Of a stretch of DNA of 64,000 nt, positions 34,916 through 39,259 are shown one piece after another. The notes beneath the pieces are model-generated. The model was not told where the DNA came from. It saw only the letters and a program-made list of their open reading frames with translations, and made no database searches. The stretch is taken from positions 62,001 to 126,000 of the forward strand of contig CP034120.1 in NCBI GenBank assembly GCA_003856375.1, in the 5' to 3' direction. This DNA is from Glaciecola amylolytica. Its GTDB lineage: Bacteria > Bacteroidota > Bacteroidia > Flavobacteriales_D > Crocinitomicaceae. A program made the translations under genes and the position numbers. The number at the start of each line of letters is the position of its first letter. The first letter of the stretch is position 1.

Positions 34916-34940
34916 AATAATAAGTTCGGACTAGTTGTTG

Positions 34941-35771
34941 ATGAAACGAGGTGTGAATCAGATGAAACAATTTTCAGGAAGGTCTGCGGAAGCCCTTATC
35001 TATCCTTTGCTTTTGGTACTTGTTTGCTGGACAATCTGGCTTCTTGAAAGAACTACCGGAGGCAGCGATTTGATCGAATGGGGAATCCGTCCGAGACATT
35101 GGAGCAGTTGGAAAGGGCTCTTCTTTATGCCATTATTACATGATCCGTATAATATCAAGCATATTTTGAATAACTCACTTCCGACCTATTTGCTGCTGGC
35201 TGCAGTCATTTATTATTACCGGGAGATTGCCCTGCGGGTTTTCCTCATTTCCTGGTTCGGAACCGGATTCATTGTCTGGTGGGTAGCTCAGGATAATGGA
35301 GCATATCACATCGGAATGAGCGGCGTGATCTATGCACTTTTCGGATTCCTGTTTATCTCCGGATTTTTCAGAAGAGTGAGAGCGCTTCAGGGAATTTCAC
35401 TGGCCGTGATATTTGTCTACGGAAGTATGATCTGGGGAATTTTCCCAATGGAACCATCGATTTCCTGGGAAGGACATTTCGGGGGGTTCGCGGTTGGGGT
35501 TTGTTTGGCGGTTGCATATCGGAAACACGGCCCTGTTCAGCCGAAATACCAATACGAGATTGAAAAAGAAATGGGAATTGAACCTCCCGATCTGGAAGGA
35601 ATGTGGAGACAAAATCAGGAAGAAATTGCTTACAGGCAATATTTGGAACAATTATACCGGGAACAGGCAAATCAATACGGTCCGCAGCCACCGGTTCGGA
35701 TCATTTATCACATTAACCCTTTGAAGAAGGTGGAAGAGGCAGAAAAACCTCCGGGCGATACTGAAAAATAA
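34941..35771 (+). CDS. Rhomboid family intramembrane serine protease
   Basis: A 276-residue membrane protein with about six hydrophobic helices. The catalytic Ser is in HIGMSGVIYALFGF (GxSG), the catalytic His in WEGHFGGFAVG, and the usual loop motif appears as HILNNSLPTYLLL. Rhomboids cleave transmembrane helices within the membrane. The C-terminal ~75 residues are hydrophilic and charged, facing the cytoplasm. ATG 34941 is used; ATG 34962 (MKQFSGRSAEA) is equally plausible. Its 3' end overlaps the convergent SixA-like gene by 59 bases. Confidence 0.9.
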   Translation: MKRGVNQMKQFSGRSAEALIYPLLLVLVCWTIWLLERTTGGSDLIEWGIRPRHWSSWKGLFFMPLLHDPYNIKHILNNSLPTYLLLAAVIYYYREIALRVFLISWFGTGFIVWWVAQDNGAYHIGMSGVIYALFGFLFISGFFRRVRALQGISLAVIFVYGSMIWGIFPMEPSISWEGHFGGFAVGVCLAVAYRKHGPVQPKYQYEIEKEMGIEPPDLEGMWRQNQEEIAYRQYLEQLYREQANQYGPQPPVRIIYHINPLKKVEEAEKPPGDTEK

Positions 35772-36225
35772 TTACTCCCGTTCCGCTGATGAGGTGATCC
35801 CACGATTCGAATGGAAAAGTGAGAGAGATCATTTCCGAAGTGCGCAGATGAATGGATTCCCCGGAAAGGTAACTGGCAAGCTGAGAAATTCCTTCATTGT
35901 GCCCGATAATGGTAACCGTTTTGTCGTCTTTCCCCATGTCTTCAATCACATCGAGAATTTGCCGGTGGGAACAGAGATAGAGTTTTTTACTGAACTCGAA
36001 ACTGAATTGTTCTGCCAGATGCTGACAAATAACAGATCTCGTTTGCTGCGTTCGGACAGCGCTGGAGCAAATGATCTTTCCGAGGGTAATGTGATGTGTC
36101 TGGAGGTAATTGCCGAGAACATTTGCCTGAGATACGCCTTTGTCGAGTAAAGCCCGGTCAAAATCATCACCTGAAGGTGAGACCTGATTGGTCTTTGCAT
36201 GCCGAATGAGGTGTAATGTTAACAT
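35713..36225 (-). CDS. SixA-like histidine phosphatase
   Basis: A 170-residue histidine phosphatase superfamily member: the phosphate-pocket RHA motif is in LTLHLIRHAKTNQ at residues 1-13, CSSAVRTQQT supplies the second Arg, and TIIGHNEGISQLASYL the second His. SixA dephosphorylates phosphohistidine proteins in signalling. I start at ATG 36225 because the family begins directly with the RHA strand; an upstream start (36279) would add an unconserved hydrophobic stretch. The last 20 codons overlap the rhomboid gene in antisense. Confidence 0.85.
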   Translation of the reverse strand: MLTLHLIRHAKTNQVSPSGDDFDRALLDKGVSQANVLGNYLQTHHITLGKIICSSAVRTQQTRSVICQHLAEQFSFEFSKKLYLCSHRQILDVIEDMGKDDKTVTIIGHNEGISQLASYLSGESIHLRTSEMISLTFPFESWDHLISGTGVIIFQYRPEVFLPLPPSSKG

Positions 36226-36331
36226 TTTTACGTAATTTCCAACCAATGGTAAAGATATGACGTTATGAATAAAAAACAAGCTTGAAGTTTCAACATTTTA
36301 TGTTGTTAGTGAATAATTTGAACCCGGGTAA

Positions 36332-36907
36332 ATGCAAGTAACCAAACAGATATTATTGGGATCTGCAGAGAATGATAGACGCTCGCAAAAGCTGCTCTAC
36401 GAGTATTGCTATAGGCAGTTTATTCGTCTGTGTCTGAGATATTATACCAATCATGAAGATGCCAGACATGCATTGAATAATGGGTTCCTGAAAATTGTGA
36501 ACGGCTTGCAGAATGTAGATCTGGATGAACTGAACTTCCCGGCCTGGGCGAAGCGGATTATTGTAAATACCCTGATTGATGAGTATCGGAAGAATAAAAA
36601 TCACAATCAGATAATTGTAGCGAAAGAAACTGAAGGAGAATTGGCATACGCGGCTGAAAAAGTCGAAAATGAAGGAGCATTGGAATTAAGTTATCAGGAA
36701 GTTCTTGATTTATTGAAAACCATTCCGCCGATTTCTGCTCACGTGTTTACACTGTATATCATTGACGGGTACAGCCATAAAGAAATTGGTGACCTGCTTG
36801 AAATTACGGAAGGAACATCGAAATGGCATCTTTCAACCGCAAGAAAATTACTTAGAGAACGGCTTGAAATGATGGAAAACAGACATGAAAAACGCTTTGT
36901 GATATGA
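36332..36907 (+). CDS. ECF-type RNA polymerase sigma factor
   Basis: A 191-residue sigma-70 family protein of the extracytoplasmic-function type. Region 2 spans residues ~22-85 (YRQFIRLCLRYYTNHEDARHA, then FPAWAKRIIVNTLIDEYRK) and region 4 spans ~120-180 (LDLLKTIPPISAHVFTLYII, then YSHKEIGDLLEITEGTSKWH). It would direct transcription of a small regulon. The next gene overlaps by ATGA (36904-36907) and encodes a membrane-anchored protein expected to act as its anti-sigma factor. Confidence 0.92.
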   Translation: MQVTKQILLGSAENDRRSQKLLYEYCYRQFIRLCLRYYTNHEDARHALNNGFLKIVNGLQNVDLDELNFPAWAKRIIVNTLIDEYRKNKNHNQIIVAKETEGELAYAAEKVENEGALELSYQEVLDLLKTIPPISAHVFTLYIIDGYSHKEIGDLLEITEGTSKWHLSTARKLLRERLEMMENRHEKRFVI

Positions 36908-38142
36908 AATATTCAAATCGACATATTAGCGACGACGAACTGGATCAACTGTTCAGAGATGCACATGCTGCCGAAGGACAGGAACCTCTTTTCGTTCCGG
37001 AATTCTGGACGGAGATGGAAGCGATGCTGCCTGCTGAGAAAAAAAGAGGCGCATTTATTCCGTGGATTTCAGTTGCAGCGACTCTCTTGCTGGTGCTTGG
37101 TTTGATTTTTTATCCGATCGGAAAACCCCGAATTGCACGCCTTGAGAACAATCAAACGACTTTAGCGAAAGATAACGAAACAAATAAGGAAAATACACCG
37201 GAACACATATCTGAAACAACTCATACGGAATCGATCATTGAAAACGCACATGCAACTGCTGAATCTTCTGTTCAGGTGAACAGAACCAGAGATCATTCAA
37301 GAATCCGTACTGGAAACAAACCGGTTCAAACCAATCAAAACCGGAATCTGACAACCGAACAAAACCGAATCTTGGAAAAAGAAGAACCTGTTCAACCTCT
37401 TAAGGACGAATCTTTGGCTAATAATCCGGATCCTTCGGAAACAAATCCAATTGATTCGGCGGATGAAGATACAGCCTTCGAACCTTTGGGAACAAAAGAA
37501 TTTGTAGCAGATAACAATAAAGACATAGATCCGCTTCGCAAAACGAAGAGAAATCAGGATGAAAACTCCTGGTATGTGGAGCTTGGGCCAACTATCGGGC
37601 AATCTCCTTATTTGTCTCCGGATCAGAAACGAAACGTCGTTGGCGGAGTAGTGCTTGGTGGTGGTTATACCAAAAAGATCGAGAGAACCTTTGTAAGTTT
37701 CGGGTTGCAAGCCAGAATGGAAGGTTTCGGAGGTTTGAACTACCGGGAAAGCAATTTTTCTGAGAATATGGTACGCACCGTTTCTGTGAAGCAATTGTAT
37801 TCATTGGAATTGCCTTTGCGTTTCGGATTTGTTTTCCAGCGATCAGAAATATCATTCAGCGCTGTGCCGGGTGTTCAGTTGTTTATTCACGGAAAAGAGC
37901 AAATTACCCAAAATCAGGTCGTTCAGCGTCAGGGAAATTATACAGGAAAAGTGGAACACTCCAACTCCATGACCATGGAATTCGGGTTTCAATATTACTA
38001 CCATTTGTCACCAAAATATAGTATCGGGGCAAAATTCCATGCAGATGTTCTGAGACCGTTCCATACAGATTATTATTTGGGCAAATCGGCAGGACTTCCT
38101 TTAAACGGACAATTTGTGATAAGAAGAACATTCTCGAAGTAA
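36904..38142 (+). CDS. Single-pass membrane protein with C-terminal outer-membrane-like beta domain (putative anti-sigma partner)
   Basis: A 412-residue protein in three parts: an acidic N-terminal ~46 residues (HISDDELDQLFRDA, cytoplasmic if anti-sigma-like), one transmembrane helix (about 51-70, FIPWISVAATLLLVLGLIFY) and a Q/N/T/E-rich linker to ~residue 215. The last ~195 residues look like a porin-family beta-barrel (WYVELGPTIGQSPY, GGVVLGGGYTKKIE, LELPLRFGFVF, MEFGFQYYYHLS). The start overlaps the sigma-factor stop (ATGA), so the two are co-translated. Anti-sigma function is inferred from position and topology; barrel and inner-membrane anchor in one chain is unusual and might span the periplasm. 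Confidence 0.7.
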   Translation: MKYSNRHISDDELDQLFRDAHAAEGQEPLFVPEFWTEMEAMLPAEKKRGAFIPWISVAATLLLVLGLIFYPIGKPRIARLENNQTTLAKDNETNKENTPEHISETTHTESIIENAHATAESSVQVNRTRDHSRIRTGNKPVQTNQNRNLTTEQNRILEKEEPVQPLKDESLANNPDPSETNPIDSADEDTAFEPLGTKEFVADNNKDIDPLRKTKRNQDENSWYVELGPTIGQSPYLSPDQKRNVVGGVVLGGGYTKKIERTFVSFGLQARMEGFGGLNYRESNFSENMVRTVSVKQLYSLELPLRFGFVFQRSEISFSAVPGVQLFIHGKEQITQNQVVQRQGNYTGKVEHSNSMTMEFGFQYYYHLSPKYSIGAKFHADVLRPFHTDYYLGKSAGLPLNGQFVIRRTFSK

Positions 38143-38158: not shown

Positions 38159-38166
38159 TATATTTG
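38159..38166 (+). promoter_or_regulatory. -7 box (TATATTTG) of the following T9SS gene
   Basis: Exact TAnnTTTG match, 16 bases upstream of ATG 38183. Confidence 0.5.
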
Positions 38167-38182
38167 TTGAAACTACTTTAAA

Positions 38183-39259
38183 ATGAAACATTTGCTACTT
38201 CCTTTTTTGGCTTTAAGTACTTTTTCTTTTGGCCAGGTTACCCTAACTGATCAGCATTTTGCCGGACCCGGAGAATCATATGTTTTCAGTACTTTGACCG
38301 ATCCGACAATTGATTATGCCACAACGGGCACGAATCACACATGGGATTTCTCTATGTTGGTTCCTCAGGATCAACGAAGTTTGATCACTAACCCGATGAG
38401 TCAGGTAACAGGATTGTCTTCTTTGACATTCGGAAGTTTTGCTCCTGCACCTTATAAAGCAAGTTATTTTAATGCAACAACCGATTTGCCGATTGCTCAG
38501 GCTTCGTCTATTTTGCCGGTTCAAATTGATGAGTTGAACCAGTTTTCCAAAAAAACAACTTCGGCAATTACCTCTATCGGTTACGAAATCGTGAGCAGCG
38601 GCCAGGGAATTGGTTTCCGTTCCGATACCATTGAAACGCGCTACGAACTTCCTTTGACTTACGGAGATAATTACGAATCGAGAGGATACACGAACATTGA
38701 TTTGAACCCGATTTACGATGCAAAATGGAGACAACACCGTCACCGTGTGAGCAGCGTAGATGGTTGGGGAACGGTAAAAACTCCTTTCGGACAGTTTGAT
38801 GCTATCCGGATTCATCATGTGATTGACGAATTGGATTCCATTTACATTGCCTTCAATGGTTTCACTATGTGGCTTCCGGTTGCAGTTCCCTTAACACACG
38901 AATATGAATGGAGATCAACTTCCGATAAAGAAGCAGTGATGCGCATTCGTACCAACGAAATTTTAGGAAATGAAACCGTAACTGCGGTAGAATACAGAGA
39001 TAATTTCAATGGATTGGGGCTTACTGAAAGCACTGTTTCCGTTCAGTTTTATCCGAATCCTGTTACAACTGAATTGTATGTTTCTACTGCAGAATTGGCG
39101 CAAAACTTCTTTATCGTAGATAATTCCGGCCGTGTTTGGAAGCAAATTCCGGCAACGTCAAAAGAACAGGTTCTGGATGTTTCAGAATTGGCATCCGGTT
39201 CTTATTCCTTAGTAGTTGTATTTACTTCCGGATATACTGCACAGAAATTCGTTAAATAA
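38183..39259 (+). CDS. Secreted protein with type A T9SS sorting domain
   Basis: A 358-residue protein with signal peptide (ending LSTFSFGQ). The bulk (residues ~20-275) has no domain I can name; it reads like a beta-rich fold (TGTNHTWDFSMLVPQDQRS, RYELPLTYGDNYESRGY) that is common to Bacteroidota secreted proteins. The last ~75 residues (SVQFYPNPVTTELYV to the tail YTAQKFVK) are the type A sorting domain for export by T9SS and attachment through its system of C-terminal cleavage. It has its own promoter and is followed directly by RNase P RNA. Confidence 0.82.
   Translation: MKHLLLPFLALSTFSFGQVTLTDQHFAGPGESYVFSTLTDPTIDYATTGTNHTWDFSMLVPQDQRSLITNPMSQVTGLSSLTFGSFAPAPYKASYFNATTDLPIAQASSILPVQIDELNQFSKKTTSAITSIGYEIVSSGQGIGFRSDTIETRYELPLTYGDNYESRGYTNIDLNPIYDAKWRQHRHRVSSVDGWGTVKTPFGQFDAIRIHHVIDELDSIYIAFNGFTMWLPVAVPLTHEYEWRSTSDKEAVMRIRTNEILGNETVTAVEYRDNFNGLGLTESTVSVQFYPNPVTTELYVSTAELAQNFFIVDNSGRVWKQIPATSKEQVLDVSELASGSYSLVVVFTSGYTAQKFVK

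Follow-up and report, generated by a model that had tools for sequence, protein, structure and literature searches.

In the DNA analyzed here, a 64,000-nucleotide stretch of the Glaciecola amylolytica genome (contig CP034120.1, positions 62,001 to 126,000; hereafter the window, in whose own numbering coordinates are given), two overlapping genes very probably encode a sigma/anti-sigma system of the Das/Dma type, in which one polypeptide chain would run from the inner to the outer membrane and a C-terminal barrel would sense the event that releases the sigma factor. Our analyses directly support the order and overlap of the two genes, the conservation pattern, a tether whose length is kept, the prediction of a barrel, and kinship with Dma-like genes. 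A study of Bacteroides thetaiotaomicron (PMC13088901) describes Dma proteins as a family of dual membrane-spanning anti-sigma factors that is confined to Bacteroidota. Each is built from an N-terminal anti-sigma domain, a transmembrane helix, a long disordered tether, and a C-terminal barrel, and the genes adjoin an ECF21 sigma factor gene (PMC13088901). The window pair fits the Dma family by every feature that can be tested in sequence and would be a flavobacterial member of it. A first-pass annotation of the window had proposed a single anti-sigma chain carrying elements of both membranes. By analogy this proposal is supported, its parts being the same as those of the Dma design (PMC13088901), and it is right but not new because that design has already been published. 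The long disordered tether was not named in the annotation. The length of this tether and a sister class of proteins with a sorting domain, both described below, go beyond the published findings that we met.

The sigma factor gene (36332-36907, + strand) encodes a Das-like ECF protein of 191 aa, with matches above cut-off to Sigma70_r2 (E = 3.6e-11) and Sigma70_r4_2 (5.7e-10) in Pfam and to sigma70-ECF (5.7e-23) in NCBIfam. The putative anti-sigma gene follows on the same strand (36904-38142, 412 codons), and the ATGA by which the two open reading frames were first said to overlap is seen at 36904-36907. Among the 59 genomes searched, that of G. amylolytica included, 23 have a match to the 412-aa protein. 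These are all 14 from the genus, 8 of 22 others from the family, and 1 of 23 others from the order. Each of the 24 distinct loci (own included) has a homologous sigma gene immediately preceding the match in the same orientation, and the 23 sigma factors at related loci are 34-93% identical to that of the window. The pair is not a chance arrangement, because every genus genome has a match and every one of these loci has the upstream sigma gene. Further loci taken from a scan of the phylum have a sigma gene just upstream in 29 of 29 cases. The fact that recognizable relatives thin out fast beyond the genus is counted against our preferred explanation. Just 5' of the sigma start codon, TTTGAACC at 36317-36324 is invariant in eight of eight aligned loci; the upstream region that holds it is well conserved overall, with a mean column identity of 89%.

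The 412-aa protein has no family match above cut-off in Pfam or NCBIfam, and neither library yields a zinc-binding or RseA-type anti-sigma domain at E values up to 1. Likewise, a sequence search of solved structures returned no relative at E up to 1. Several matches under cut-off on the helix and linker (CcmD at 0.014 and PFF1_TM at 0.53 in Pfam; CcmD at 0.081 and HpsJ-like at 0.083 in NCBIfam) were judged to be due to chance. The family alignment has 22 rows, which represent the 24 distinct loci minus one gene cut by a contig end (L004) and one with a broken frame (L012). The N-terminus is the most conserved part of the protein, with a mean identity between the window protein and its 21 relatives of 54.9% for residues 1-48, compared with 28.3% for residues 49-72, 13.6% for residues 73-219, and 40.7% for residues 220-412. 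Residues D10, D14, L16, F17, W35, E37, and L42 are invariant or nearly so, and residues 1-48 are 79-85% identical to those of the seven nearest relatives (L002 and L006-L011).

We modeled the full chain with AlphaFold2 from four sequences. The model, whose confidence is low (mean pLDDT 44), has helices at residues 10-22, 32-40, and 51-68, an unstructured region at 69-220, and eight strands at 221-409. Residues 1-48 (36904-37047), with their conservation and low-confidence helices, are presumed to form a cytoplasmic domain that binds the sigma factor. The predicted inner-membrane helix (residues 51-69; 37054-37110) is the most hydrophobic 19-residue stretch of the protein, with a mean hydropathy of 2.41. 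This peak and the modeled helix at 51-68 bear out the N-terminal membrane helix that the first-pass annotation had placed at residues 51-70.

Residues 70-220 (37111-37563) constitute the predicted disordered periplasmic tether of about 150 residues, for which pLDDT values are about 25-38. In the window protein, 151 residues separate the end of the helix from the first strand of the model, and 84% of the linker residues come from the set NQSTEKPDRGAH. Measured between the predicted helix end and the first strand, linker length among the 22 members ranges from 123 to 251 residues with a median of 148.5. Length is thus kept while sequence is free, as expected of a tether that joins two fixed ends across the periplasm. 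A stretched chain extends by about 0.34 nm per residue, so a tether of about 150 residues would reach about 50 nm, and the periplasm, some 20-30 nm wide, is narrower than this. One chain could reach both membranes because of this long disordered tether.

The C-terminal region (residues 221-409; 37564-38130) is predicted to form an eight-stranded outer-membrane barrel on the basis of models, structural neighbors, and Pfam matches in relatives. When this piece was modeled alone (AlphaFold2, three sequences), eight strands were obtained at low confidence (pLDDT 57.7, pTM 0.53). At E values of 0.1 or lower, 12 of the 22 aligned proteins match the Pfam family OMP_b-brl; the window protein itself has no Pfam barrel match. 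A Foldseek search of the PDB with the C-terminal model gave nothing at an E value of 0.001 or better, and its list of weak hits consists mostly of outer-membrane barrels. With VIA-align, the top neighbors are a designed barrel, OmpA, OprF, and NspA (Z 6.1-6.7 over 90-95 residues), and nearly all neighbors are outer-membrane or designed membrane barrels; all Z values stay under 8, a range that may reflect merely a common arrangement and is not decisive alone. Furthermore, 17 of the 22 members have an aromatic residue among their last three positions, and a C-terminal aromatic residue is in keeping with an outer-membrane assembly signal. We therefore accept the predicted C-terminal domain as a barrel, most likely one of eight strands. 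The barrel-like character first ascribed to the last ~195 residues is in this way upheld by the modeled strands, the barrel neighbors, and the OMP_b-brl matches. Modeling of the C-terminal part alone, which had been proposed as a check, gave a low-confidence barrel and no soluble periplasmic domain.

Taken as a Das/Dma-type system, the pair would operate as follows. At rest, the N-terminal domain would hold the ECF sigma factor at the inner membrane, a repression step that is carried over by analogy from Bacteroides. The single helix would serve as an uncleaved anchor in the inner membrane, the disordered tether of about 150 residues would span the periplasm, and the C-terminal barrel would sit in the outer membrane as the sensor. 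An outer-membrane trigger, such as barrel assembly, barrel state, a ligand, or a changed distance or tension between the membranes, would then alter or destroy the chain, and the sigma factor would be freed to turn on its regulon.

Because anchors and signal peptides have helices that are alike in sequence, the helix might instead be cleaved after export, in which case the freed anti-sigma fragment and the outer-membrane barrel would act apart, with no continuous chain between the membranes. However, inspection by eye found no small-x-small motif right after the window helix, nor one that is kept in the alignment. Moreover, linker length is kept although the linker sequence is nearly unconstrained, which counts against cleavage because a cleaved chain would not need it. 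We consider cleavage improbable. A still less likely arrangement, to which we give very little credence, is a classical single-pass anti-sigma factor whose C-terminal domain is a soluble periplasmic beta domain. The low confidence of the models, the window member that lacks a Pfam barrel match, and the presence of one soluble barrel (allene oxide cyclase) among the 50 VIA-align rows are compatible with this arrangement, but the OMP_b-brl matches in more than half of the members, the almost complete predominance of membrane barrels among the other structural neighbors, and the frequent terminal aromatic residue all argue against it.

In Bacteroidota, ECF sigma genes are commonly accompanied by FecR-type partners, and the window protein might by this token be a FecR-like anti-sigma factor that relays a signal from a separate TonB-dependent receptor. 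In FecR/FecI-type surface signaling, an event at the outer membrane is passed through an inner-membrane anti-sigma factor to an ECF sigma factor. The signal route proposed for the window pair is the same, but the pair lacks a FecR domain and would unite sensor and anti-sigma factor in one chain. No FecR match was found in the 412-aa protein at E up to 1 in Pfam or NCBIfam, no TonB-dependent receptor is encoded by the four neighboring genes scanned, and the predicted outer-membrane element lies within the same chain. A FecR-like relay is therefore the least plausible of these alternatives, and we assign it almost no weight.

The Das/Dma-type reading comes from a comparison with the published description of parts. 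On these terms, Dma1 and Dma2 with Das1 and Das2 of B. thetaiotaomicron share with the window pair the same parts, an adjacent ECF sigma gene, and an origin in Bacteroidota. The window pair differs in belonging to another family of that phylum, and NigD was not found in its genome, which is counted against the reading. Loss of dma2, which belongs to a three-gene operon, leads to more vesicles, and das2 is required for that phenotype (PMC13088901). The Dma1 phenotype requires NigD1, the Dma1 effector in Bacteroides, and Dma3 has a sigma domain fused at the N-terminus of the same chain (PMC13088901). Dma3 and the window pair both combine a barrel with a sigma partner, which in the window takes the form of two genes with a 4-base overlap.

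Because NigD1 is needed for the Dma1 phenotype, we used NigD_N to reach genomes nearer Bacteroides. Of 295 genomes of the class, 8 have a NigD_N match; five of the 8 belong to a single family, here called f22, that we infer to be near Bacteroides. No match was found in the G. amylolytica genome or in seven others from its family, and therefore the output of the window system probably differs from that of Dma1. To search f22 we used a profile (A5) of 37 members, comprising the window protein, seven proteins encoded beside other sigma genes of its genome, and 29 phylum proteins; among these members, 17 match PF13568 and 7 match PF13505. The profile matches 51 of 61 f22 genomes, with many of the matches confined to the barrel in frames of ~200 residues; these are probably ordinary barrels. 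Among the best-scoring 30 f22 loci, a sigma gene is adjacent in 20, of which 11 have the same 4-base overlap, whereas 7 have sigma factor and barrel matches in one open reading frame; of the last three loci, one is split and two lack a sigma gene within reach. The fused forms (L111, L115, L116, L117, L120, L121, and L133; 547-586 aa, seven genomes) join sigma factor and barrel in the way that the Bacteroides study reports for Dma3. In three of the five NigD-bearing f22 genomes (G286, G294, and G522), NigD_N lies ~1 kb from a Dma-like gene.

An alignment (A8) covers 18 of the 30 f22 loci, that is, all but the seven fused forms, the split form, L109, L119, L129, and L130, and 17 of the 18 aligned proteins match OMP_b-brl. 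The linkers in f22 have a median length of 123.5 residues (range 91-161). In profile comparisons between the window family and f22, the barrel ends match with 96.6% probability over 103 columns. The N-termini alone give a weak match (E = 5.8e-4, probability 29%), compared with E = 0.057 for the best of 30 column shuffles used as a control.

Across the phylum, a profile search matched 62 of 296 genomes, with at most five candidates scored per genome and some matches in the barrel part alone. Four of the 29 phylum proteins are short (240-263 aa) and have no room for a barrel, and some members are much longer, up to 641 aa. At L065 and L072, the sigma gene is followed by a long protein that runs off the examined stretch. 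The two members that match von Willebrand A domains are probably these proteins, and such domains would add another type of C-terminal module to those encoded after sigma genes of this kind.

Fourteen sigma genes of the G. amylolytica genome, including that of the window, match the sigma profile. Four of the others (L031, L032, L035, and L036) are followed by genes for long proteins that contain a hydrophobic stretch and end in a strand-rich region. Barrel-family matches below the curated cut-off were obtained for L031 (E = 9.6e-5) and L035 (0.013). No barrel-family match was obtained for L032 or L036, so that their Dma-like character is a sequence-based guess, and L036 has a weak hydrophobic stretch (1.46). 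The genome thus probably holds several pairs of a sigma factor and a putative two-membrane anti-sigma factor. Elsewhere in the same genome (L042:402-1496, G000:C1:1919746 region), a gene for a sigma-like protein of 177 aa precedes one whose product combines a hydrophobic stretch with a DUF2807 (head GIN) match at E = 1.1e-34.

In a sister class, the barrel is replaced by a type IX sorting domain. In the G. amylolytica genome (G000:C1:4112158-4113613; L086, also L033:1495-2956), a sigma gene overlaps by 8 bases the gene for a 312-aa protein composed of an N-terminal domain, a hydrophobic helix at residues 57-75, a linker, and a C-terminal type IX sorting domain, with no barrel. The sorting domain matches CHU_C (4.1e-15) and TIGR04131 (39.5 bits), both above cut-off. 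Among the best-scoring 20 loci of this class (own included; L086-L105), a sigma gene lies upstream in all 20; the sorting domain was checked with Pfam in the G. amylolytica member and by alignment to that member in the others, the alignment being partial or in pieces for L097, L098, L102, and L105. The search for this class gave matches in 59 of 59 genomes, a count that is meaningless for the fusion because other type IX cargo shares this domain. The linkers of 19 members are 122-188 residues long, with a median of 146. Profile matches link the N-terminus of the class to its counterparts in the window family (E = 1.1e-5) and f22 (E = 1.6e-8); the column-shuffle control covers only the comparison of the window family with f22. 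Another sigma/anti-sigma-like pair in the G. amylolytica genome (L034:1471-3320, G000:C1:2264050 onward) includes a 425-aa protein whose C-terminus has a weak CHU_C match (E = 0.01, under cut-off).

A literature search for anti-sigma factors with type IX secretion or sorting domains turned up no description of such a protein among the papers listed. The nearest likeness found is to Porphyromonas gingivalis PorA, which has a type IX sorting domain and acts on SigP through the PorXY two-component system (PMC7712824). Both that system and the sister class have a sorting-domain protein that feeds, or would feed, an ECF sigma factor, but PorA is described there as a surface protein that signals via a separate two-component system, not as an inner-membrane anti-sigma factor like those predicted for the sister class (PMC7712824). 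The sister class might make transcription responsive to the state of the secretion system.

A tree of 97 sigma factors places those paired with the window family, f22, and the sister class on one side of a branch (support 95/96), separate from four further ECF sigma factors encoded in the G. amylolytica genome. This clustering is favored by the choice of rows because most of the sigma genes were found through their partners. The 97 rows leave out L012, L094, L097, L109, L119, the fused, split, and unassigned forms, and the G. amylolytica sigma genes L039-L041. Long branches in the tree were flagged by the tree program, and the label "barrel" for phylum loci that have no Pfam match rests on length and tail.

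The genes around the window pair also form a conserved neighborhood: rhomboid protease, histidine phosphatase, sigma factor, anti-sigma factor, and type IX secreted protein (34935-36279 and 38183-39259 for the flanking genes). The Rhomboid-family protease gene (34935-35771, + strand; Pfam Rhomboid 9.5e-16) turns up close to the pair at 15 of the 24 distinct loci, counting only the short flanks that were examined. As a guess, this protease may cut the helix and so be the release protease. The divergent gene at 35713-36279 (- strand; Pfam His_Phos_1 4e-7) encodes a histidine phosphatase, which we take to be SixA-like, and is present in the examined flanks of 20 of the 24 loci. Downstream, the gene for a protein with a type IX sorting tail (38183-39259, + strand; Pfam Por_Secre_tail 9.8e-8) adjoins the pair in all 14 genus genomes. 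It is preceded by a TATATTTG box at 38159-38166 that occurs in eight of eight aligned loci, and the gap between it and the anti-sigma gene varies from about 40 to about 500 bases. This gene probably has its own promoter, as judged from the sequence. Its placement as a third operon gene, for which the three-gene dma2 operon of the Bacteroides study is a model, was rejected given this box and the variable gap.

A wider reading, which we offer tentatively and consider rather less likely to be right than wrong, is that these proteins belong to a modular clan in which a common chassis carries exchangeable outer-membrane modules (a barrel or a type IX sorting domain) and the tether acts as a length-matched gauge. 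The chassis would consist of a sigma-binding domain, a helix, and a tether of some 120-150 residues, and Dma would be one branch. The sigma factor would then read either the state of the barrel together with the spacing of the envelope or whether the type IX machinery has engaged the protein. The wider reading is suggested by the tether medians of 148.5 and 146 residues in two branches of the bacterial family to which G. amylolytica belongs, by the N-terminal matches of the sister class, and by a supported branch in the tree that keeps their sigma partners together. The shorter median tether of f22 and the phylum proteins of up to 641 aa are counted against it.

The pair described here would carry into flavobacteria a Dma design that has been studied in gut Bacteroides. 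A single polypeptide that reaches both membranes would provide a direct route from the cell surface to transcription, and the conserved length of its tether makes the sensing of membrane spacing or tension a testable physical question. If functional, the sister class would offer a means of sensing the condition of the type IX secretion system.
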